Assembly (NCBI GenBank): GCA_036496605.1
Contig: DASXKV010000004.1
Span: forward strand, 186,001-250,000
Direction of reading: 5' to 3'
DNA: 64,000 nt
DNA from: Gemmatimonadaceae bacterium
GTDB taxonomy: Bacteria > Gemmatimonadota > Gemmatimonadetes > Gemmatimonadales > Gemmatimonadaceae
This document shows, one piece after another, positions 6,346 to 20,468 of the stretch (its first letter is position 1; each line of letters starts with the position of its first letter). A program made the translations under genes and the position numbers. The notes under the pieces were generated by a model, which did no database searches, was not told where the DNA came from, and saw nothing but the letters and a program-made list of their open reading frames with translations.

Positions 6346-8025
6346 TTAGAGGGTGCGCTTGGTGAGCTCGTCCGCCGCGAAGTTTGCCGCTCGCGCCGTC
6401 AGTGCCATGTAGCTGAGCGACGGATTCTGACACGCAGTCGAGGCCATGCACGAACCGTCGGTGACAAAAACGTTAGGCGCATCCCACACCTGATTGTGCG
6501 AGTTGAGCACGGAATTCGTCGGCTTGGTGCCCATGCGCGCCGTGCCCATCTCGTGAATGCCCATGCCGGGGAAGCAGGGTTCGTCGTAGGTGTGCACATC
6601 CTTCACACCAGCCGCCTCGAGCATCTCCGCCATGTCAGTGCCCATGTCTTTGCGCATCCGATGCTCGTTCTCGCCCGTCGCGCAGTCGATCTTGAGCACC
6701 GGCAGGCCCCACTTGTCTTTCCGGTTCTCGTCGAGCGTCACGACGTTCGCATGGTTAGGCAGCATCTCGCCGAACGCGGTGCCGCCGACGGTCCACTGCC
6801 CCGGCTCGGCCATCGAGTCCTTGAAGCCGCCGCCGACGCCCATCTCCGCGACCGCGCGCGACCAACCCTCGCGTCCCGCCGATCCTTCGTACCCGAAACC
6901 GCGCAGGTAATCGCGCTTCTCGCCAAAGAGATTGCGATAGCGCGGGATGTAAACGGAGTTCGGCTTACGGCCGTACTGATCCTTGTCCTGGAAGCCGTCG
7001 ATGCGTCCTTCGGCGCCGACGCGGAAGTGGTGATCCATCAAGTTGTGTCCAAGCTCTCCAGAGCTCGACCCGAGACCTCCCGGCCAGATGTCGGTCGCGG
7101 AGCGCAGAAGAATCCAGGTCGAGTTGAGCGTCGACGCACAGAGGAAGATCACCTTCGCCTTGTAGTCCGTGCTCTGCATCGAGATCGCATCCAGCACGCG
7201 AACGCCGCTCGCGCGCTTCCTGTCCTTGTCGTACAGAACCTCGTTCACGATCTGCCAGGGCTTCAGCGTGAGGTGCCCCGTCTTCATCGCGGCGGGAAGC
7301 GTCGACGATTGCGTGCTGAAGTAGGCCCCATACGGGCAGCCGAGCCAGCATGCATCGCGGTATTGGCAGGCGGAGCGGCCGCCGATCGGCTGGGTGAGGT
7401 TTGCCGTCCGGGCTGGAATCCATCGTCGCTTGCCGTCGAAGTGCTGCCTAACGCGATCGGCAACCATCTGCTCCGCGCAGTTGAACGGCATCGGTGGCTG
7501 GAACTTGCCGTCCGGCAGTTGCGGCATGTGCTCGATCGAGCCGGAGATTCCGGCGAACGGCTCGACATGATCATACCAGGGCGCGATGTCCTTATATCGA
7601 ATCGGCCAGTCGGTGCCGACGCCTTCTCTGGCATTTGCCTCGTAATCAAAATCGCTCCACCTAAAGGAGCAGCGGCCCCACATCAGGGATCGACCCCCAA
7701 CGTGGTAACCCCGATACCAATCAAACCGTTTGACTTCGGTGTACGGCGAATCCCTATCCGAGGCCCACCAATCGAGATTCTTTTCGTTGAGTGGATAATC
7801 ACGTCGCAGGACGGGATAGTCCTCTTCCATCTTCTTCGTGCGGCCGCCGCGATGTGGGTACTCCCACGGTCCCTTTTGCGCGTTCACATAGTCTTTGATG
7901 TGCTCGATGTTCTTCCCCCGCTCGAGCAGGAGCACATTGAGACCTCGCTCGGAGAGCTCTTTTGCCGCCCAGCCGCCCGAGATGCCAGAACCAACGACGA
8001 TGGCATCGTACGTCGTGCTTTGCAC
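6346..8025 (-). CDS. GMC-family FAD oxidoreductase, copy 1
   Basis: A 559-residue flavoprotein of the glucose-methanol-choline family. The N-terminal ADP-binding fold is GSGISGGWAAKELSERGLN; further marks are HVGGRSLMWGR, RDACWLGCPYGAYF, FLCASTLNSTWILLRSA and GHNLMDHHF. The active-site end is GIHEMGTARMG, DGSCMASTACQNPSLSYMA. This matches the large subunit of gluconate-2-dehydrogenase-like enzymes that oxidise sugars or sugar acids. No own signal peptide is seen, so export may be by hitch-hiking on the Tat signal of the subunit 3 protein encoded 12 bp downstream. It is a close paralogue of the next gene (8041-9720), with identical length and long identical stretches. Confidence 0.93.
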   Translation of the reverse strand: MQSTTYDAIVVGSGISGGWAAKELSERGLNVLLLERGKNIEHIKDYVNAQKGPWEYPHRGGRTKKMEEDYPVLRRDYPLNEKNLDWWASDRDSPYTEVKRFDWYRGYHVGGRSLMWGRCSFRWSDFDYEANAREGVGTDWPIRYKDIAPWYDHVEPFAGISGSIEHMPQLPDGKFQPPMPFNCAEQMVADRVRQHFDGKRRWIPARTANLTQPIGGRSACQYRDACWLGCPYGAYFSTQSSTLPAAMKTGHLTLKPWQIVNEVLYDKDRKRASGVRVLDAISMQSTDYKAKVIFLCASTLNSTWILLRSATDIWPGGLGSSSGELGHNLMDHHFRVGAEGRIDGFQDKDQYGRKPNSVYIPRYRNLFGEKRDYLRGFGYEGSAGREGWSRAVAEMGVGGGFKDSMAEPGQWTVGGTAFGEMLPNHANVVTLDENRKDKWGLPVLKIDCATGENEHRMRKDMGTDMAEMLEAAGVKDVHTYDEPCFPGMGIHEMGTARMGTKPTNSVLNSHNQVWDAPNVFVTDGSCMASTACQNPSLSYMALTARAANFAADELTKRTL

Positions 8026-8040
8026 TGAGATTCCTCCGGT

Positions 8041-9720
8041 TCAGAGGTTGCGCTTGGTAAGCTCGTTCACGGCGAACGCCGCCGCACGCGCGGTGAGCGC
8101 CATGTACGTCAGCGACGGGTTCACGCAGGCCGTCGAAACCATGCACGATCCATCGGTGACGAAGACATTGGGCGCGTCCCACACCTGGTTGTTCCCGTTG
8201 AGCACCGATGTCTTCGGGTCGCGGCCCATCCGTGCCGTGCCCATCTCGTGAATGCCCATGCCCGGGAAGTACCCGCTGTCGTACATCTGCACGTTCTTCA
8301 CTCCGGCTGCCTCGAGCGTTTCCGCCATGTCGTTCATCATGTCGACGCGCATCTTGCGCTCGTTCTCGCCGATGGCGCAATCGATCTTGAGGACAGGGAG
8401 TCCCCACTTGTCCTTCCGCGTCTCGTCGATCCCGACCTGATTGGCGTGGTTAGGCAACATCTCGCCAAATGCCGTCGCACCGATCGTCCACGGGCCTGGC
8501 TCGGCGGCGTTGTCCTTGAAGGCGCCACCCACACCGAGCTCCGCGACGACGCGCGACCATCCGTCGCGGCTCGCGCCGCCTTGATAGCCGAAGCCACGCA
8601 GGTAGTCGCGCTTCTCGCCAAAGACATTCCGGTAGCGAGGGATGTAGAAACCGTTCGGTCGACGGCCGTAGTAGTACTTGTCTTCCATCCCCTCGATGCT
8701 CCCCGACGCGCCAAGACGGAAGTGGTGGTCCATGAGGTTGTGTCCGAGCTCGCCCGAGCTCGAGCCGAGACCACCCGGCCAGACGTCGGTCGCCGATCGC
8801 AAGAGCAGCCAGGTTGAGTTGAGCGTCGATGCGCAAAGGAAGATCACCTTCGCGGTGTAGTCCGTCGCTTTCTCGCTGACGGCGTCGAGCACGCGAACGC
8901 CCGTCGCGCGCTTCTTGTCCTTGTCGTAGAGCACCTCGGTCGCGATCGCCCACGGCTTCAACGTTAGGCGGCCCGTCTTCATCGCGGCCGGAAGCGTCGA
9001 CGCCTGCGTGCTGAAGTAGCCGCCGTACGGGCAGCCAAGCCAGCAGGCGTTGCGGTATTGGCAGGGCGAGCGCCCGGGGAGCGCCTGTGTCGCGTTGGCG
9101 ACACGTCCGGGAATGATCCGTCGCCTGCCTCCGAATTTCTTCGTTAGGCGCCCGGCGATCAGCTCTTCACCGCAGTTGAGCGCCATCGCCGGCTGAAACT
9201 TGCCGTCCGGGAGCTGCGGCATGTGCTCGATCGATCCGGAGATGCCGGCGAACGGCTCGACGTAGTCGTACCACTTGGTGACGTCGGCGTAGCGGATGGG
9301 CCAATCGACGGCCACGCCCTCCTTCGCATTCGCCTCGAAGTCGATATCGCTGTGACGATAGCTCTGTCGTCCCCAGAGCAGTGAGCGGCCGCCGACGTGG
9401 TAGCCGCGGAACCAGTCGAAGCGTTTGACCTCCGTGTATGGCGAGTCCTTGTCCGACGCCCACCAGTCGAGATTCTTCTCGTTCAGTGGGTAGTCACGCT
9501 TGAGGACGGGGTACGCTTCCTCCATCGCCGTCGTGCGCCCGCCGCGATGCGGATACTCCCACGGTCCCTTCGTCGCGTTAGGGTAATCCTTGATGTGCTC
9601 GATGTTCTTGCCGCGCTCGAGCAGCAGCACATTCAGACCTCTCTCGGTGAGCTCTTTGGCTGCCCATCCTCCCGAGATGCCCGACCCCACCACGATCGCA
9701 TCGTACGTCGTGCTCTGCAC
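8041..9720 (-). CDS. GMC-family FAD oxidoreductase, copy 2 (tandem paralogue)
   Basis: Also 559 residues and alignable with the neighbouring copy without gaps as far as I can see. The same landmarks occur: GSGISGGWAAKELTERGLN, HVGGRSLLWGR, RNACWLGCPYGGYF, GIHEMGTARMG, DGSCMVSTACVNPSLTYMA. Differences cluster in the middle third (for example LTKKFGGRRRIIPGR against VRQHFDGKRRWIPAR), which suggests different substrate preference after duplication. It is the first gene of the minus-strand set, with 15 bp to the next copy, so the promoter should lie just upstream of 9720. Octamers at 8962-8969 and 9142-9149 force CTA codons. Confidence 0.93.
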   Translation of the reverse strand: MQSTTYDAIVVGSGISGGWAAKELTERGLNVLLLERGKNIEHIKDYPNATKGPWEYPHRGGRTTAMEEAYPVLKRDYPLNEKNLDWWASDKDSPYTEVKRFDWFRGYHVGGRSLLWGRQSYRHSDIDFEANAKEGVAVDWPIRYADVTKWYDYVEPFAGISGSIEHMPQLPDGKFQPAMALNCGEELIAGRLTKKFGGRRRIIPGRVANATQALPGRSPCQYRNACWLGCPYGGYFSTQASTLPAAMKTGRLTLKPWAIATEVLYDKDKKRATGVRVLDAVSEKATDYTAKVIFLCASTLNSTWLLLRSATDVWPGGLGSSSGELGHNLMDHHFRLGASGSIEGMEDKYYYGRRPNGFYIPRYRNVFGEKRDYLRGFGYQGGASRDGWSRVVAELGVGGAFKDNAAEPGPWTIGATAFGEMLPNHANQVGIDETRKDKWGLPVLKIDCAIGENERKMRVDMMNDMAETLEAAGVKNVQMYDSGYFPGMGIHEMGTARMGRDPKTSVLNGNNQVWDAPNVFVTDGSCMVSTACVNPSLTYMALTARAAAFAVNELTKRNL

Positions 9721-10025
9721 TCGCTCCTCCTCGTCTCTGGGCGGCTCGCTATGGCGCTGGCTGCATCGACCAATTATGACGCAGAACGCGTGAGTTCGCG
9801 AATCCGGTGGCGAGCCTCGCCGAGGGCCGGCGACGAAAGAAGACGTGTGTCGCTCAGGTCGCTTCCTGGCGTCCCCGTCGTGGCGAGCCGTACTGGCACG
9901 TCTAGTGCTCCGGAGAGTTCGCTCAGCGTTCGGCGTACGGCAGGATCGGAGTTTGCGGAAACAACGCCAAGGCCGGAGTCGGTCCCAGGGCGGGTTCCCT
10001 CTTTTTCAATAGCTAGGAAGGCAGC
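9721..10025. other. 305-bp divergent intergenic region
   Basis: This gap separates the GMC operon (minus) from the small lipoprotein gene (plus), so it should hold both promoters. A purine-rich ribosome-binding site (aggaagg) sits at about 10015-10021 before the ATG at 10026, preceded by a short T-rich stretch (ctctttttcaat). I see no repeat array, no RNA gene and no convincing operator. Confidence 0.5.
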
Positions 10026-10505: not shown

Positions 10506-12749
10506 TCAGACCGGGAAGAGCATCTCCCGATACTTCGGCAGTGGCCACAGCTCGTCGTCGACCAGCAGTTCGAGGGCATCGCTCGCCTGACGAGTGGCAG
10601 CCATCGCGTCCGCGCCCGTGCTGGTGAGGAACTCCGCTTGTTCCTCGAGCTCTTCGTGCATGCCTTCGGCCTTGTCGATCGCCTTACCGAGCGCATTGCG
10701 CGCCGACTGCAGCTCCTGAATCAACTTGCCGATGCGGTTCGCGGGCTCGAGCTGCGGAATGGCCTTGATCCCCGCCTCTTTTGCACGCGCCGCCGACGTC
10801 GCCAGACCGCCCACGTACTCGAGCGCGGCCGGCAGAACGAGCGTGTCGACCGTTTCTCGCAACGTGTGGAGCTCGATGAGCATGTCCTTAACGTACCGCT
10901 CGAGTCGCACGTGATAGCGAGAATCGAGCTCTTCCTCGCTGAAGATCCCGAGCTTGGTCAACAGCTGGCGTGACTGCTTGGTAACGAGCTGCTTCAGCGC
11001 CTCGGGAGTACGGCGCAGATTCGGAAGTCCGCGCTTATCCGCTTCCTTGACCCACTCCTCCGAGTAGTTATTGCCCTCGAAACGAATGGCCGCCGTCTCC
11101 TTGAAGATGCGGCGAACGATCTTGAGCACCGCGTCGTCAGTCTTCTTCGTCTTCTTGATCTCCGCCTTGAGCTCGGCGGTGATCTCGCCGATCGTCTCGG
11201 CGACCGCGGCGTTCAACAATACGATCGGGAACGCGATCGACTGCGACGACCCGACCGCTCGAAATTCGAACTTGTTACCGGTGAACGCAAAAGGAGATGT
11301 GCGGTTCCGGTCGGTATTGTCGCGCTGGATCTCCGGAAGACGAGCGACGCCGAGCTTGATCATTTCCTGATCGGCGCTGTTCGTCACTTTGCCCTCGGCG
11401 ATCGTCTCGATGACGTGTGTGAGCGTGTCGCCCATGAACACCGAGATGATGGCGGGCGGTGCTTCGTTCGCGCCGAGCCGGTGCTCGTTGCCGGACGTTG
11501 CGATCCCCGCGCGCAAGACCGCGGCGTACTTGTGCACGCCCTTGAGAATAGCGGCGAGGAAAACGAGAAAGCGAATGTTCTGGTGCGGCGTCTGGCCGGG
11601 CTTGAGCAAGTTGTAACCGTCGAGCTCCGGATTCTCGGCTGCCACCGACATCGACCAGTTGCAGTGCTTGCCCGACCCATTGATTCCGGCAAAGGGCTTC
11701 TCGTGCAGCAGAGCCTGGAGGTTGTGACGCAGCGCGACGCGCCGCAGCGTCGCCATGACGAGCTGGTTGTGATCGACGGCGACGTCGGTCTCCTCGAAGC
11801 GCGGGGCCATCTCGAACTGGCTCGGCGCCACTTCGTTGTGCCGCGTCACGATCGGTACGCCGAGCTTATACAGCTCGTACTCGACTTCGGCGATGCACGC
11901 CTGGATGCGCTCAGGAATCCCGCCGAAGTAGTGATCCTCGAGCTGCTGACCGCGCGGCGGCGGAGCGCCAACGAGCGTCCGTCCGGCCATGACGAGGTCA
12001 GGTCGCAACGCGAAATGACCTCGATCAATCAGGAAATACTCCTGCTCGGGACCAAGCGTGGTGTAAACACGGTGGACGCCTCTGTCACCGAGCAACTCGA
12101 GCAGCGCGATCGCGCGATCGCTCAGCGCGTCGGAGCTGCGGAGCAGGGGAGTGAGCTCGTCGAGCGCCTCACCGTTGTAGCCGATGAAAACAGAAGGAAT
12201 GCACAGCGTCTTCACGCCAGCCCACTCGGCGATGAACACCGGGCTGGCAGGGTTCCATGCGGTGTAGCCGCGCGCTTCCCACGTCGCACGGAGACCGCCG
12301 GACGGAAAGCTCGAGGCGTCGGGCTCGCTCTGGATGAGCTGCGAGGCACTGAACGACTCCATCGGCTGGCCATCGTCGAAGGAGAGGAAAGCGTCGTGCT
12401 TCTCGGCAGTGAGACCCGTCTGGGGCTGGAACCAGTGGGTAAAGTGCGTAGCCCCGCGAGAGATGGCCCAGTCGCGAATGACGCTCGCGACCTTGGGCGC
12501 GATCTCTACATCGAGCTTTTTGCCCTGTCGGATGGCGGCGACGAGCTTGGTGTAAACCTCGGGCGAGAGCTTGTCGCGCATCTGACGCGCGCCAAGAGTG
12601 TTGATTCCGAAATACTCGGAAACTCGAGCGCCAGACATGGTCGAACCGTTATGGGATCCACCGTTCGAGCCATTCCCGTTCGCTCGTGCGGTGCGCGAGG
12701 AGATCTCGCGATTCACTTCCTGTCGATTGTGATGGGTGGTGACTGACAT
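10506..12749 (-). CDS. glnN: Glutamine synthetase, type III
   Basis: A 747-residue product, the usual size of the large dodecameric GSIII family and unrelated in length to the type I enzyme at 1.2 kb. Marks include the N-terminal region YFGINTLGARQMRDKLSPEVY, HWFQPQTGLTAEKHDAF with FDDGQP and FSASQLIQSEPDASSFPSGG, the glutamate site ITRHNEVAPSQFEMAP-like stretch, GINGSGKHCNWS and NRTSPFAFTGNKFEFRAVGSSQS. It carries out ATP-dependent ammonia assimilation in the cytoplasm. The first 40 residues are rich in Asn/Ser and poorly conserved; the true start could be later. No octamer occurs inside this 2.2-kb gene, in contrast to most neighbours. The 172-bp gap upstream shows no clear operator. Confidence 0.95.
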   Translation of the reverse strand: MSVTTHHNRQEVNREISSRTARANGNGSNGGSHNGSTMSGARVSEYFGINTLGARQMRDKLSPEVYTKLVAAIRQGKKLDVEIAPKVASVIRDWAISRGATHFTHWFQPQTGLTAEKHDAFLSFDDGQPMESFSASQLIQSEPDASSFPSGGLRATWEARGYTAWNPASPVFIAEWAGVKTLCIPSVFIGYNGEALDELTPLLRSSDALSDRAIALLELLGDRGVHRVYTTLGPEQEYFLIDRGHFALRPDLVMAGRTLVGAPPPRGQQLEDHYFGGIPERIQACIAEVEYELYKLGVPIVTRHNEVAPSQFEMAPRFEETDVAVDHNQLVMATLRRVALRHNLQALLHEKPFAGINGSGKHCNWSMSVAAENPELDGYNLLKPGQTPHQNIRFLVFLAAILKGVHKYAAVLRAGIATSGNEHRLGANEAPPAIISVFMGDTLTHVIETIAEGKVTNSADQEMIKLGVARLPEIQRDNTDRNRTSPFAFTGNKFEFRAVGSSQSIAFPIVLLNAAVAETIGEITAELKAEIKKTKKTDDAVLKIVRRIFKETAAIRFEGNNYSEEWVKEADKRGLPNLRRTPEALKQLVTKQSRQLLTKLGIFSEEELDSRYHVRLERYVKDMLIELHTLRETVDTLVLPAALEYVGGLATSAARAKEAGIKAIPQLEPANRIGKLIQELQSARNALGKAIDKAEGMHEELEEQAEFLTSTGADAMAATRQASDALELLVDDELWPLPKYREMLFPV

Positions 12750-12921
12750 GTGCGGCAGGGCCTCTCAAAAAAGGGGACGCGTTCCAGCCGAGAGGCAATG
12801 TATTGCCATTCGTGCGAAAATCGCAAATCCAACGTTGCACATGGACTCATGACTGGCCGCCGAAGCGGCTAAAATGACCCTGTCCATGCTCAAACTGCAC
12901 GGATTTGGTGTCGGACGCGCG

Positions 12922-14199
12922 CTACAAGTCCCGCCGAGCCCGCTCGATCGCGCCCAGGCGTCGGAGGCTCGGAATGCGACGCGCCACAATTCCTACAACG
13001 GACAACGAAGCGACTCCTCCAAGCACGACCGAAGTCACCGTGCCGAGAAAACGGGCTGCGACTCCTGACTCGAAGGCGCCGAGCTCATTGGAGGAGCCAA
13101 TGAAAATCGCATTTACCGAGGAAACCCGGCCAAGTAGATGCTCGGGCGTCAGCACCTGGAGCAGCGTGGAGCGAACGACGACGCTCACGTTATCGGCCAT
13201 TCCGCTGATGGCCAGCAGGACGAGCGATAGCAGGAAGCTTTTCGAGAGACCGAATCCAATGATGCAGACTGCGAAGACCGCCACTGAGTTCAGTAGAGCG
13301 CGTCCCGCCCGGCGAAACGGCCTCTGGTGGGCGAGATACAAGGACATCAGCGTTGCGCCTGCTGCAGGGGCCGCGCGCAAGATGCCAAGGCCCTCCGGAC
13401 CGGCATTCAGAATCTGATCCGCAAAAACCGGCAGAAGAGCTTCGGCGCCGCCGAGGAGCACGGAGAAGAGATCGAGAGTCATCGCGCCGAGCAGAACGGG
13501 CTCTCGCAGAACAAAGTGAATTCCGGTCCGCAGACTCTCGGAGACGGAGCTCTCGTTTGCTCTCTGGCCGCGCGGCACGTACGCGATCGCCGCAAAGGCG
13601 AAGAGCGCAACGATCATCAGTGCCGCGTCGACGGCGTAGGCGAAGGACGGCGAGGTGAAACCATAGAGGAGTCCCCCGAGGGCAGGACCGGCAACGGCTG
13701 CCGTTTGCCACGTCGAGCTCCGCCACGCTACCGCGTTCGGATACAGCTCTCGAGGAACGATCTCCGCGCCGAGCGCCTGACGGGCCGGCTGGAGAAAGCT
13801 GCGGGCTATACCGCTGAGAAAGATCACGACGTAGAAGGGCCACACGCCGCGGTGCATCGCCGAGTCGGCGCGAGGACTCGCGAGAAGGCTCAGGAGAAGA
13901 AGCGACACCGAGCAGACGACGAGCAACGCGAGCGACGACAGCGAGATCCTGCGCCGGTCGCGCCGGTCAGCGACGTGCCCCGCGAAGAGCGCGATGCTGA
14001 TATAGGGAAGCGCCTCGGCCAGGCCCATGAGGCCTAACGAGAGGGGATCGCGCGTGATGTCGTAGATCTGCCACGAGACGACGACGCCCTGGATCTGCGC
14101 CGCCAGCGTCATCGTGAACGTGCTCAGTATGTACCAGCGGTAGCTCGAAATGCGAAGCGAAGCGTACGGATCGTGCGGCTGGAGAAGGGAATCGTCCAC
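12922..14199 (-). CDS. MFS transporter, EntS/MFS_3-like exporter
   Basis: A 425-residue inner-membrane protein with about 12 hydrophobic segments. The N-terminal half carries SWQIYDITRDPLSLGLMGLAEALPYISIALFAGHVADRRDRRRI, the typical MFS loop 2-3 signature (GHVADRRDRRR), and IARSFLQPARQALGAEIVPRE. The late loop LLGRVSSVNAIFIGSSNELGAFESGV matches the family of enterobactin-exporter-like and macrolide-type MFS pumps. The start is GTG (cac at 14197-14199). It stands alone between the GSIII and DUF4142 genes. Substrate is unknown. Confidence 0.88.
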   Translation of the reverse strand: MDDSLLQPHDPYASLRISSYRWYILSTFTMTLAAQIQGVVVSWQIYDITRDPLSLGLMGLAEALPYISIALFAGHVADRRDRRRISLSSLALLVVCSVSLLLLSLLASPRADSAMHRGVWPFYVVIFLSGIARSFLQPARQALGAEIVPRELYPNAVAWRSSTWQTAAVAGPALGGLLYGFTSPSFAYAVDAALMIVALFAFAAIAYVPRGQRANESSVSESLRTGIHFVLREPVLLGAMTLDLFSVLLGGAEALLPVFADQILNAGPEGLGILRAAPAAGATLMSLYLAHQRPFRRAGRALLNSVAVFAVCIIGFGLSKSFLLSLVLLAISGMADNVSVVVRSTLLQVLTPEHLLGRVSSVNAIFIGSSNELGAFESGVAARFLGTVTSVVLGGVASLSVVGIVARRIPSLRRLGAIERARRDL

Positions 14200-15238: not shown

Positions 15239-15562
15239 ATGTCGAACGTGAAGATCGACTTCGACGCGGCAGGTGGCGTCGACCTGGGGCGTCTCGAGCG
15301 GAGTCTGGCGCTCCACGGTGAGCGAATCGCCGATGGCCGATACTGCGTGACGGGCGGCGCTCACGCGCACTGGGTGGATCTCGTCACCACCTCACATCCG
15401 CGCTGCGATTGCGGCGATCATCTCTGGCGAGAGCGCATCTGCAAGCACATCCTCGCCGCGTTGCTGCGCGAAGGAAACGAGCGCGTGCTGTCGGCATTGC
15501 CGCAGCTACTCGCGAGAGTGCATGCGACGACGCGCGACAAGCGCGCGTGCGATGCCGCCTGA
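15239..15562 (+). CDS. SWIM zinc-finger protein
   Basis: A 107-residue product if started at the ATG 15239 (MSNVKIDFDAAGG). The core PRCDCGDHLWRERICKHILAAL is a SWIM finger (CxCx(n)CxH), a zinc-binding DNA or protein interaction module. The residues before it (RYCVTGGAHAHWVDLVT) form the usual beta-hairpin. It ends with a TGA at 15560-15562. The same reading frame stays open after that TGA through the whole 21-bp repeat array to 16198, so a longer SWIM plus heptad-repeat protein is possible if the TGA is a recent nonsense change or is read through. It is divergent from the DUF4142 gene and converges on the PAP2 gene. Confidence 0.8.
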   Translation: MSNVKIDFDAAGGVDLGRLERSLALHGERIADGRYCVTGGAHAHWVDLVTTSHPRCDCGDHLWRERICKHILAALLREGNERVLSALPQLLARVHATTRDKRACDAA

Positions 15563-15583
15563 GCTGTCTTCGACTCGCGGTCA

Positions 15584-16134
15584 TCAGACCTCGGGTCGCG
15601 GTCTCTGGTCCTGGAGTCGCGGTTCTCTGTCCTGGAGCCGGTGCCATCCGACCACGAGTCGCGGTTCTCTGTCCTGGAGCCGGTGCCATCCGACGACCAG
15701 TCGCGGTCCTCTGTTCGGGAGCCCGTGCCATCCGACCACGAGTCCCTGACATCTGTCTCGGAGTCGGTGCCATCCGACCACGAGTCCCTGACATCTCTCT
15801 CGGAGTCGCTGCCATCCGACCACGAGTCGCTGTCATTTGTCCTCGACTTGCTGAGCGGTGACCGCCGCCTCGTGACTGCGAATCAGCGCCGCGAGAGTGT
15901 TGCGCGCCGCTCGCAATCAGGTGATCTCGAACTCGAGCGCGCGAGCACCGCCAAGGTCTCGAGAAATCAGCGCCTCGTGGACGCGTCTCGCCGCTACGAG
16001 TTGCGTGCACGCGACTTCGAGACTAGTGATCACGATCAGGTGAGCGCTGATCGCGCCATCGAAGACGCGCACCATCGCCCGATGACCTGTGCGCCGATTA
16101 CGCTGGATCGAGACAGCGCCTTGGAGCTAGAACG
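15584..16134. repeat. Degenerate 21-bp tandem repeat array 1 (about 26 units)
   Basis: Consecutive 21-bp blocks line up without gaps from about 15584 to the end of the PAP2 gene. The first part is well conserved and alternates two block types, making a 42-bp unit: 15617-15658 and 15659-15700 are nearly identical. The phrase CCATCCGACCACGAG recurs at exactly 42-bp spacing (for example in blocks starting 15638, 15722, 15764, 15806). After about 15848 the blocks decay but keep the period and phase. All forward frames are open over long parts because 21 is a multiple of three; one frame, shared with the SWIM gene, is open to 16198 and gives seven-residue repeats such as LVTANQR, LVDASRR, YELRARD. 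No octamer CGTTAGGC occurs here. Function unknown. Confidence 0.88.
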
Positions 16135-17803: not shown

Positions 17804-18508
17804 ATGCGTAGAGCCCCAGTGACGAGACTCTTCGACTACGCAGGGTGGGCTCATCGCGCCCACCAGTTCGTACTCATGCTCAAAGACCGCCCTGGCTTTA
17901 AAGTCGAAGCAAGCTACGTCGCTCCTCCCTTTCAGCCGGCGCAGTCAAACGCCCTTGATCGGCGCCTGGCCCAGTATCTCCCCGACACATTTCGACACTT
18001 TCTCACGCTCGGCACAGCGGCGATCGATTGCCGCTATAGCCTCGATGAAGACAGTGCCGCCGGTCGCGAGTTCAGCAAACTGTTCATCGGGTCCGACCTA
18101 TATGGTGGTGCGCGCATCGGCCCGGCGAACGCACTGCCCCGGTTTGCGAGATCGTGCCTCGAGCGGTCCAGGGTCCTTCTCGAGGACCAGGACACCGACA
18201 GAGCAGACGATTGGGTGGAAAGCCTGCCCATAATTGCCGTCGGCAATGGCGACTACGTCGCGCTCAATGGAATCATTGGCAGAGAGATCGACGATCCTGC
18301 CGTGCTCTATCTGTCGCACGACGGAGATGATGCCGTGATGACTGAATCGTTCACGGCCTTTCTCGCGGCGTGGGAGCACCTGTGCTATGTCTCGCCCGAC
18401 CTCTTGTTGCAAAACAGCTTCTTCGCCGCCGGCTATGCCTTGCTAGATCCAGATTCGCGTCGCGCGAAAAAGCTCCGCCAGCTCTTCGGCCTCAGCGCAA
18501 TCTGTTGA
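17804..18508 (+). CDS. SUKH (SMI1/KNR4)-like protein
   Basis: A 234-residue soluble protein. The stretch WVESLPIIAVGNGDYVALN followed by VLYLSHDGDDAVMTESFTAFLAAWEHLCYV has the pattern of SMI1/KNR4 (SUKH) domains: a central GNGD turn, YLxHDG and a C-terminal SFxxFLxxW helix. SUKH proteins are widespread as immunity proteins against polymorphic toxins, but I see no toxin gene beside it. The N-terminal 110 residues are not recognised. Upstream, an opposite-strand small gene; downstream, with its stop 27 bp away, begins repeat array 2, in the same reading frame. No octamer occurs in the gene, consistent with foreign origin. Start taken at the ATG 17804. Confidence 0.65.
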   Translation: MRRAPVTRLFDYAGWAHRAHQFVLMLKDRPGFKVEASYVAPPFQPAQSNALDRRLAQYLPDTFRHFLTLGTAAIDCRYSLDEDSAAGREFSKLFIGSDLYGGARIGPANALPRFARSCLERSRVLLEDQDTDRADDWVESLPIIAVGNGDYVALNGIIGREIDDPAVLYLSHDGDDAVMTESFTAFLAAWEHLCYVSPDLLLQNSFFAAGYALLDPDSRRAKKLRQLFGLSAIC

Positions 18509-18535: not shown

Positions 18536-19706
18536 TTGTTACTGCGCAGGCCCTCGAGCGAGAAGGCGAGTCAACCGCTGTCAGATCGATCATCCTCGTA
18601 GCGACGAGCCGTTCGAAGTGTGACCGGAGTGCCCGTGGATGGGTGATTGCGACCGTTAGATCGCTAGGTCGCTGGTACGCTGGAAGCTCCTTCGTCGTTA
18701 GGGCGCTGTTTACGGCCCGATATGCCGTGAGATGATGCGTAGAAGATGAAAATTGGCCGGGAGACGCTGAATGCCGAGCGGGAGAGAGTGGTACGGGGGC
18801 TTTACTGGTGACAATTGGGGCGGTACGACTTGTTCAGTGATCGATAACGGTTGACGATGCAGCGGGACGAGGTGAGGACCGAGGTGGACAGCGATGAATG
18901 GCAACGGGATTTTGTTTGATCGCGACGCGACGGCGATCACGTGAGGCTATCGGGCCATGAAATACAGCGCTGCTGATTGACAACTGATCGGTAAGTGTGT
19001 GCAAGCGGGCGATACGGCCCGAGGTTCGAGCCGTACGCCGATTCATTGCGTCGTTACTCCGCTGCGTCAGAGCGGTACTCGTGTTAATTGCGATAGGATG
19101 ACGATGAATTGCAGCTGGACGGCGATGAATTGCAGCTGGACGGCGATCAATCGCATGTCGAGGGCAGCGCATTGGAGCGGTTCAACGATCAGTTCGGGCG
19201 CTACTGCGATCAATCGGTTCGTGTTGGTATCGGGATGCATCCGTACGGTGCGCGATTCCGTCGGTACTCCGATGCATTCGAGCGATAGCCGGCTGAGTGG
19301 CAGCGGTAGGCCGATGGGTTCGATCTGTACTGCGAGACATTGAAGCGTTACGCGCGTGAGTCCCGTCGGCACTCCCGCGAGTCCCTCCGGGACGCCCGAG
19401 AGTTGCTTCAATACGCCACTCTATTCGCTCGGGACGCCAATCAATTCGTCCGGTACACCACACGATTGCTTCGTGACGCCGATCAATTGCTTCGATACGC
19501 GTCGGCGTTGATGCGCGATCCTATCGCGTCTTCACGATACGGCTGGCAATTGATGCCATGGCGCTCATGAATCGGTCGTGACGCGGTTGGATTGCCGCGG
19601 TGAACGCGGCGATTCATGCGTGACCAGTTTGCATCCGGTGGACGGCTCGTGGCATTCGTGGTGAATTCGGATCAGTTCCGGCGTTCTGAGTCGAACGGGC
19701 GATAGA
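18536..19706. repeat. Degenerate 21-bp tandem repeat array 2 (about 56 units)
   Basis: An unbroken run of 21-bp blocks fills the whole 1.2 kb between the SUKH-like gene and the convergent SDR gene. With blocks counted from 19103, the phase holds back to about 18536 and on to 19706 without a single insertion. Blocks 19103-19123 and 19124-19144 are identical; others share only some positions. Best kept are GAT at block positions 1-3, ATT at 6-8 and TACG at 16-19 (blocks at 19208, 19439 and 19481 show this well; 18809 matches across 300 bp). In the plus frame of the SUKH gene the middle part reads as heptads such as RELLQYA, TRLLRDA and DQLLRYA, but this frame has several stops. No octamer, tRNA or gene is seen. 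Function unknown. Confidence 0.92.
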
Positions 19707-20468
19707 CTAACGGACCTGTTCGGAAGGCCTAACGAGGACCTCGTTGATCGCCATCCGCCGCGGACGCGTCACGATGAACGTGATCGTCTCCGCGATGTCC
19801 TCGGCCCGGAGTGGCTCGGCGTCGGCGAACATCGACTTTGTCTGCTCGAGAATCTCGGGGCGCAGATGCTCCGTGAGCTCCGTCGCGACAGCGCCGGGCT
19901 CGACGAGTGACACGCGTAGATGTCGACGTGTGACCTCTTGTCGCAGCGACTCGCTGAATGCGCCGACGCCGAACTTCGTCAGATTGTAGACGCCAGCGCC
20001 GGTTCGCGCCGAGCGGCCCGCGACGGAGCTGATGTTGACGAGGTCCGATACGCGCCGCGGATCCTGCTCGGCGGCGCGGAGCAGGTGTGGCAGCGCCGCG
20101 TGAGCGACGTAAAGGACGCCGAGCACGTTGAGACGCACCATTCGCTCCCACTCCTCGAGCGGCGCGTCTTCGATCGGGCCGAGGAGCATGACCCCGGCAT
20201 TGTTGATCACGATGTCCAGCCGGCCAAGCTCACGTACCGTACGGTCAACGGCGTCGCGCGCCTGTTGCTCGACGGTGACGTCGGTAGTGAGAGCGATCGC
20301 GCGGCCGCCTTTGCCAAGCTCGCGCGAGAGAGCTTCAATCCGCTGCGTGCGCCGCGCAGCGAGAGCGACCGCTGCGCCCTCGGCGGCCAGTGCGCGCGCC
20401 GTGGCTTCGCCGATACCGCTCGAGGCGCCGGTTACCAGCGCCACCGTTCCTTCGAGTCTTCGTGTCAT
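19707..20468 (-). CDS. Short-chain dehydrogenase/reductase
   Basis: A 253-residue classical SDR. The cofactor site is VTGASSGIGEATARAL, the NAG motif is VINNAGVMLLG, the catalytic Ser lies in VNISSVAGRSA, and the Tyr-x3-Lys pair is YNLTKFG (YxxxK). The arginine-rich loop after strand 2 (AARRTQRIEAL) favours NADP(H). C-terminal VTRPRRMAINEVLVRPSEQ is typical of YdfG-like members with broad substrates. The stop lies at the edge of repeat array 2. The gene is 18 bp downstream of the PadR gene's stop, so both may be co-transcribed. Confidence 0.93.
   Translation of the reverse strand: MTRRLEGTVALVTGASSGIGEATARALAAEGAAVALAARRTQRIEALSRELGKGGRAIALTTDVTVEQQARDAVDRTVRELGRLDIVINNAGVMLLGPIEDAPLEEWERMVRLNVLGVLYVAHAALPHLLRAAEQDPRRVSDLVNISSVAGRSARTGAGVYNLTKFGVGAFSESLRQEVTRRHLRVSLVEPGAVATELTEHLRPEILEQTKSMFADAEPLRAEDIAETITFIVTRPRRMAINEVLVRPSEQVR

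Follow-up and report, generated by a model that had tools for sequence, protein, structure and literature searches.

The parC centromeres of type II (ParMRC) plasmid partition systems consist of direct repeats of 10, 11, 17 or 20 bp, corresponding to roughly one or two helical turns (PMC9426499). These repeats lie upstream of the gene they serve, their sequence differs between systems, and a protein assembles along them (PMC9426499). The heptameric simple repeats of Xanthomonas and Nostoc are likewise intergenic and tandem, are based on a 7-bp unit, and are abundant in some genomes (PMC4692102). A search of the literature, which covered few subscription journals, found no published report of 21-bp arrays of the kind described here.

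Positions 18746-19690 of a 64,000-nucleotide stretch of Gemmatimonadaceae DNA, referred to here as the window, form a noncoding, dispersed array of 21-bp units that keeps its register. An initial annotation had claimed strict 21-bp periodicity, in about 56 blocks, for the longer segment 18536-19706, and autocorrelation and Fourier checks were run on that segment. Averaged over lags 21-105, identity is 0.407, far above the 0.260 ± 0.006 of shuffled sequence (maximum among 5000 shuffles, 0.281) and the 0.268 ± 0.006 of triplet-shuffled sequence. The 21-bp phase has a z of ~25 relative to shuffles, and the Fourier spectrum peaks at harmonics of 21 (4.2, 5.25, 2.63 and 10.5). Autocorrelation still detects identity above background at lag 525, and identity at lags 7 and 14 is not raised. 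The periodicity is therefore as described, within narrower limits. Unit scores from a profile of the array itself confine it to 945 bases, or about 45 units in strict register, with the consensus GATGAATTGGAGCGGTACGCC, and the leftmost 210 bp of the claimed segment (z 0.5 for a 21-bp period) score at background against the unit profile. The kept positions of the unit are A6 T7 T8, C13 and [T/G]16 A17 C18, a correction of the fixed GAT, ATT and TACG reported earlier; the identical blocks noted at 19103 and 19124 are both present. The units are degenerate and follow each other with no spacer between them, a different arrangement from the identical repeats and unique spacers of CRISPR, and the earlier description of the locus as neither CRISPR nor a simple minisatellite is fair.

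Table 1. Coordinates of the array and neighbouring features in the window.
Feature	Position	Strand	Basis or remark
Family I core 21-bp array	18746..19690	+	Unit profile scores, autocorrelation z 28, long-lag coherence
Two identical adjacent units	19103..19144	+	Unit starts 19103 and 19124
Left end of segment as first annotated	18536..18745		21-bp periodicity not detectable
SUKH-like gene (SMI1/KNR4, under curated cut-off)	17804..18508	+	Flanks array, separate from array
Short-chain dehydrogenase (SDR) gene	19707..20468	-	End 16 bp beyond array; neighbour only
Array B, 21/42-bp, different unit	~15550..16080		z 27; between SWIM zinc-finger and PAP2 genes

The array occupies most of the gap between the SUKH-like and SDR genes (Table 1), whose ends at 18508 (+) and 19707 (-) make it the convergent gap originally annotated. 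No relatives of the SUKH-like gene were found in the GTDB genomes searched, and two weak ones occur among 60 related genomes. Array B, which lies 3 kb from the core array, was absent from the initial annotation and is the cleaner of the two (TRF score 276 at period 42). Elsewhere in the window, the adjacent segments 6348-8026 and 8043-9721 are 77% identical over 1.69 kb and represent a tandem duplication.

The core array belongs to a dispersed family, family I, with at least six related copies in the 6-Mb genome (C4, C8, C33, C36, C67 and C69). The initial annotation had suggested searching the genome and its relatives with a unit model. Such a model, R1, built from four window units, recovered further copies at five places in the same genome (C8, C33, C36, C67 and C69), with E-values outside the window down to 5.8e-6. 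Among 60 relatives it found nothing convincing (best E 1.2e-4), its matches falling in DNA without strong periodicity. Another family I 5' part lies in C12. The non-window copies can be aligned with each other at 74-92% identity over as much as 1.15 kb; the window copy has diverged further, and its unit profile is what connects it with them (r 0.79-0.83, z 7.5-8.9). Three family I copies carry a hairpin, GGCCACCG...CGGTGGCC, in a conserved 5' segment (L094 9050-9137, L093 101-200 and L026 7560-7633), and this segment is absent next to the window array.

Family I is part of a wider class. At least 15 places in the genome hold 21-bp arrays, mostly with unrelated unit sequences, a count based on a 1.16-Mb sample and model searches. 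The ~1.16 Mb sampled contains 12 stretches with 21-bp periodicity, a density biased by the inclusion of contigs flagged in earlier searches, compared with 0 stretches at periods 12, 15, 20, 22, 24, 27, 30, 33 and 36 and two at 18. These dispersed relatives, together with the linkage of the class to a gene described below, support the earlier suggestion of a new repeat-derived element. Tandem repeats with 7-, 14-, 17- and 21-bp units are plentiful in this genome. Heptamer and 14-mer repeats (CCCTCTA, CCCTAGC and others) are scattered over it as inverted pairs with a short loop between them, resembling long repeat-made hairpins (L014 12753-13090, L015 1-155, L101 7862-7975, L032 8102-8224, L049 1042-1214 and L112 6039-6214). 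A dispersed 17-bp tandem repeat family, GGGACTTCGCGCCGTTC, is also present (L013 13687-13898, L043 1266-5426, L044 18556-18648 and L109 14853-17737).

Following the 21-bp arrays led to an unannotated, multicopy family of all-helical proteins, here called X, which is a previously undescribed bacterial gene family. Pfam, NCBIfam and PHROGs yielded no credible family for X, and X is absent from INPHARED phage genomes, with no relative found in viral contigs. The predicted structure (pLDDT 89) is an all-helical bundle of long helices, two of them ~55 residues each. Foldseek returned no match to this model below E 0.1, VIA-align gave only generic, uninformative helical bundles, and no fold or family match points to DNA binding. 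X occurs in 26 of 179 genomes and 11 of 35 genera of Gemmatimonadaceae, as well as in a second family of Gemmatimonadales; named records of close relatives come from Gemmatimonadaceae MAGs and one MAG labelled Deltaproteobacteria. The genome under study has X at ~15-20 places, many exactly at contig ends, where some copies may be pieces of one copy. The assemblies are of MAG quality, and several contigs of this genome end in arrays or at X. Paralogous X genes follow the C4 (first 4 kb) and C38 arrays, a further X copy starts, in reverse orientation, at the 5' end of the C36 array, and a broken X remnant can be read in C33. At L042, ORFs resembling fragments of a group II intron reverse transcriptase (12543-13607) lie directly 3' of an X gene and are followed by another 21-bp array at 13560-13930.

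As a class, the arrays are linked to X; the window copy is an orphan member. Among 35 Gemmatimonadaceae loci with enough upstream sequence, an array with z>7 lies within 1.5 kb upstream of X in 25 and is missing from 10; none has an array downstream, and none has one upstream at the control periods 18, 20, 22 or 24. Among control genes at a distance of over 4 kb from X on those contigs, 8 of 167 have an array (p 3e-17 for linkage, with the X loci of one genus being related and so not independent). In the second family, which was not used in forming the array-X idea, a z>7 array precedes X at 11 of 19 loci, 21 is the best of periods 9-30 at 17 of the 19, and one locus has a downstream array too. 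The 3' end of the array is mostly 0-350 bp before the X start, and 0.27 Mb of same-genus sister genomes in which X was not found contains no array. Neither X nor a remnant of it was found beside the core array or array B, both of which are orphans; the window array is thus linked to X through its family and not at the window locus.

Array units differ between loci, and the period alone is common. Only 9 of 595 array pairs have similar units, mostly within one genome or genus, and a unit motif shared by different genera was rejected on this basis. X proteins are 59-68% identical between genomes, and their arrays are hardly more alike than unrelated arrays; unit sequence evolves faster than X does. 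Tight co-evolution of X and unit sequence was also rejected, as its signal is weak and arises mostly within genomes. Drift of the arrays beside X proteins that remain similar speaks against a specific X-DNA pair and against X recognising one strict sequence.

Twenty-one base pairs equal seven codons, and this match invites a reading of the arrays as decayed or cryptic coding sequence for a heptad coiled-coil protein, in frame with X or antisense. Some relatives' arrays contain long open frames (antisense in L175 and L186, sense in L174 and L183). A protein-coding repeat gene should have codon-position-dependent substitution and an open frame; the window array has no open frame, and its homologous copies lack that substitution pattern. 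In the C33, C36, C67 and C69 copies, pN/pS is 0.81-1.36 across six frames, and substitutions are spread evenly over the three codon positions. GC content is flat by codon position in array frames, whereas real X genes have a GC3 of 0.73-0.94. Every frame contains at least four stops in the window array and six in L162, and array stop counts match those of column-permuted arrays. X, moreover, has its own start codon 3' of the array. The decayed coiled-coil gene first suggested is not supported by these data; on pN/pS, GC3 and stop counts, the array was rejected as coding DNA in any frame, and a coding origin of any kind is highly improbable.

The arrays could instead be transcribed, as a long repetitive leader or an independent RNA with 21-nt units bound by a protein, perhaps X. 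Their location immediately 5' of X at multiple loci is consistent with this, and the L171, L173 and L180 arrays fold better than shuffles. However, neither strand of the window array folds better than shuffled sequence, and the same holds for most other arrays; an Rfam search of the array gave no family. RNA structure was rejected as the basis of the array on these grounds, and a transcribed element of this type is unlikely.

About 500 of 1071 window array bases differ from the consensus, against at most one or two uncompensated indels. Excess identity of 0.08-0.18 persists out to 25 units, and arrays simulated with matching column composition no longer show this coherence once they carry two or more indels (0 of 40 keep the observed level). 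Long-lag coherence was used as the measure because a profile-HMM slip counter proved underpowered in simulation. With phase retained and so few indels set against ~500 substitutions, the spacing of the array looks constrained. Homologous copies differ in the core by 17-214 substitutions, with gaps of only 21, 63 or 84 bp and a single 2-bp gap (versus C8), and the adjoining 5' part shows several single-base indels. The ratio of indels to substitutions is 6:96 in the 5' part versus 1:204 in the core (p 0.006), a small comparison. The window, C8, C33 and C69 arrays also conserve the same unit columns (Spearman 0.62-0.87), although C33 and C69 are closely related and the four are not independent cases. 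A split-half test of column conservation gives an overall p of 1.4e-5, with the signal strong in some arrays and absent in others.

These whole-unit gaps are also what a selfish or neutral minisatellite would produce, in which tandem-duplicated 21-bp units drift and hitch-hike with X islands, period and sequence are functionless, and the window copy is decaying. This is the main rival to a binding platform and a real possibility, at less than even odds. Unit similarity declines with distance in many arrays, as local duplication predicts, the genome is full of 7-, 14-, 17- and 21-bp tandem repeats, orphan arrays exist, and unit sequence evolves fast. The rival is harder to reconcile with hundreds of substitutions accompanied by hardly any indels outside multiples of 21, with conservation of the same columns in separate copies, and with a single fixed period shared by unrelated units, always upstream of X, in different genera and two families. 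A hitch-hiking minisatellite accounts for unit turnover and for orphans; it does not account for the scarcity of indels or the one-sided position upstream of X.

The preferred reading, given a probability of roughly 45%, takes the window array to be an orphan of a dispersed, phase-locked 21-bp element that works as a spacing-dependent protein platform. The array would be a cis-acting DNA platform for protein assembly, with a protein sitting at every second turn of the helix, always on the same face, along ~45 units. Unit sequence would turn over fast while spacing is kept, and spacing would be under selection because something assembles on the array. X and the ECF sigma factor found near it are no more than candidate binders; the window copy would have lost X and may be a relic. 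The protein-binding array with two-turn spacing proposed initially agrees with phase retention and the shared conserved columns and remains putative; no 10.5-bp (or 3-bp) base-composition harmonic is common to all arrays. The platform reading is weakened by the uneven split-half test, by the lack of X near the window array, and by the 10 of 35 X loci without an array.

Around 23 Gemmatimonadaceae X loci, genes were counted for an ECF sigma factor (13), DUF2188 (9), CHAP (9), holin-like proteins (7) and Amidase_2 (3), using small home-made profiles partly built from those same loci, and the label "holin-like" is guessed from hydrophobicity and position. The window array has none of these genes nearby. 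At five X loci of relatives (L197, L202, L203, L199 and L206), ECF sigma factor, DUF2188, holin-like and CHAP/amidase genes occur together with X, outside any recognised phage. From gene content, this group may possibly be a sigma-controlled lysis or cell-wall module. At less than even odds, multicopy helical X and a long upstream array, conserved in its 21-bp period and free in sequence, could form a new two-part genetic system of Gemmatimonadales, in which a spacing-dependent nucleoprotein assembly would control X or the adjacent sigma-factor and lysis-like genes.

If selection over ~1 kb of noncoding DNA keeps spacing rather than sequence, the arrays represent an uncommon type of cis element, and one well suited to studying how DNA geometry is read by proteins. 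They also provide a handle on an unannotated family found at up to ~15-20 places per genome in a poorly studied phylum, often beside a sigma factor and cell-wall hydrolases.

Each of the known systems shares part of this picture. Like the Xanthomonas and Nostoc repeats, heptamers are abundant in this genome; the window array, however, lacks raised identity at lags 7 and 14, is not a G-rich heptamer, and belongs to a class linked to X. Many X loci recall phage lysis cassettes (holin plus endolysin) in having holin-like, Amidase_2 or CHAP genes, but X is not in INPHARED phages and is accompanied by an ECF sigma factor and DUF2188. The array class resembles parC in having near-helical direct repeats upstream of a partner gene, which the window copy lacks. 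It differs in that no ParM- or ParR-like gene was recognised among the scanned X neighbours, in its 20-60 degenerate units, in being chromosomal and multicopy, and in its all-helical partner, for which no family was found. Bacterial minisatellites (VNTRs) share the head-to-tail units and the change of copy number by whole units. In contrast to them, the units here are far more degenerate, most matching each other at 40-50%, but hold their register over 1 kb; unrelated units share a single period, and the site is fixed upstream of one gene family. Spacing and position are unconstrained in a minisatellite; the scarcity of indels and the linkage to X argue that here both may be under selection.
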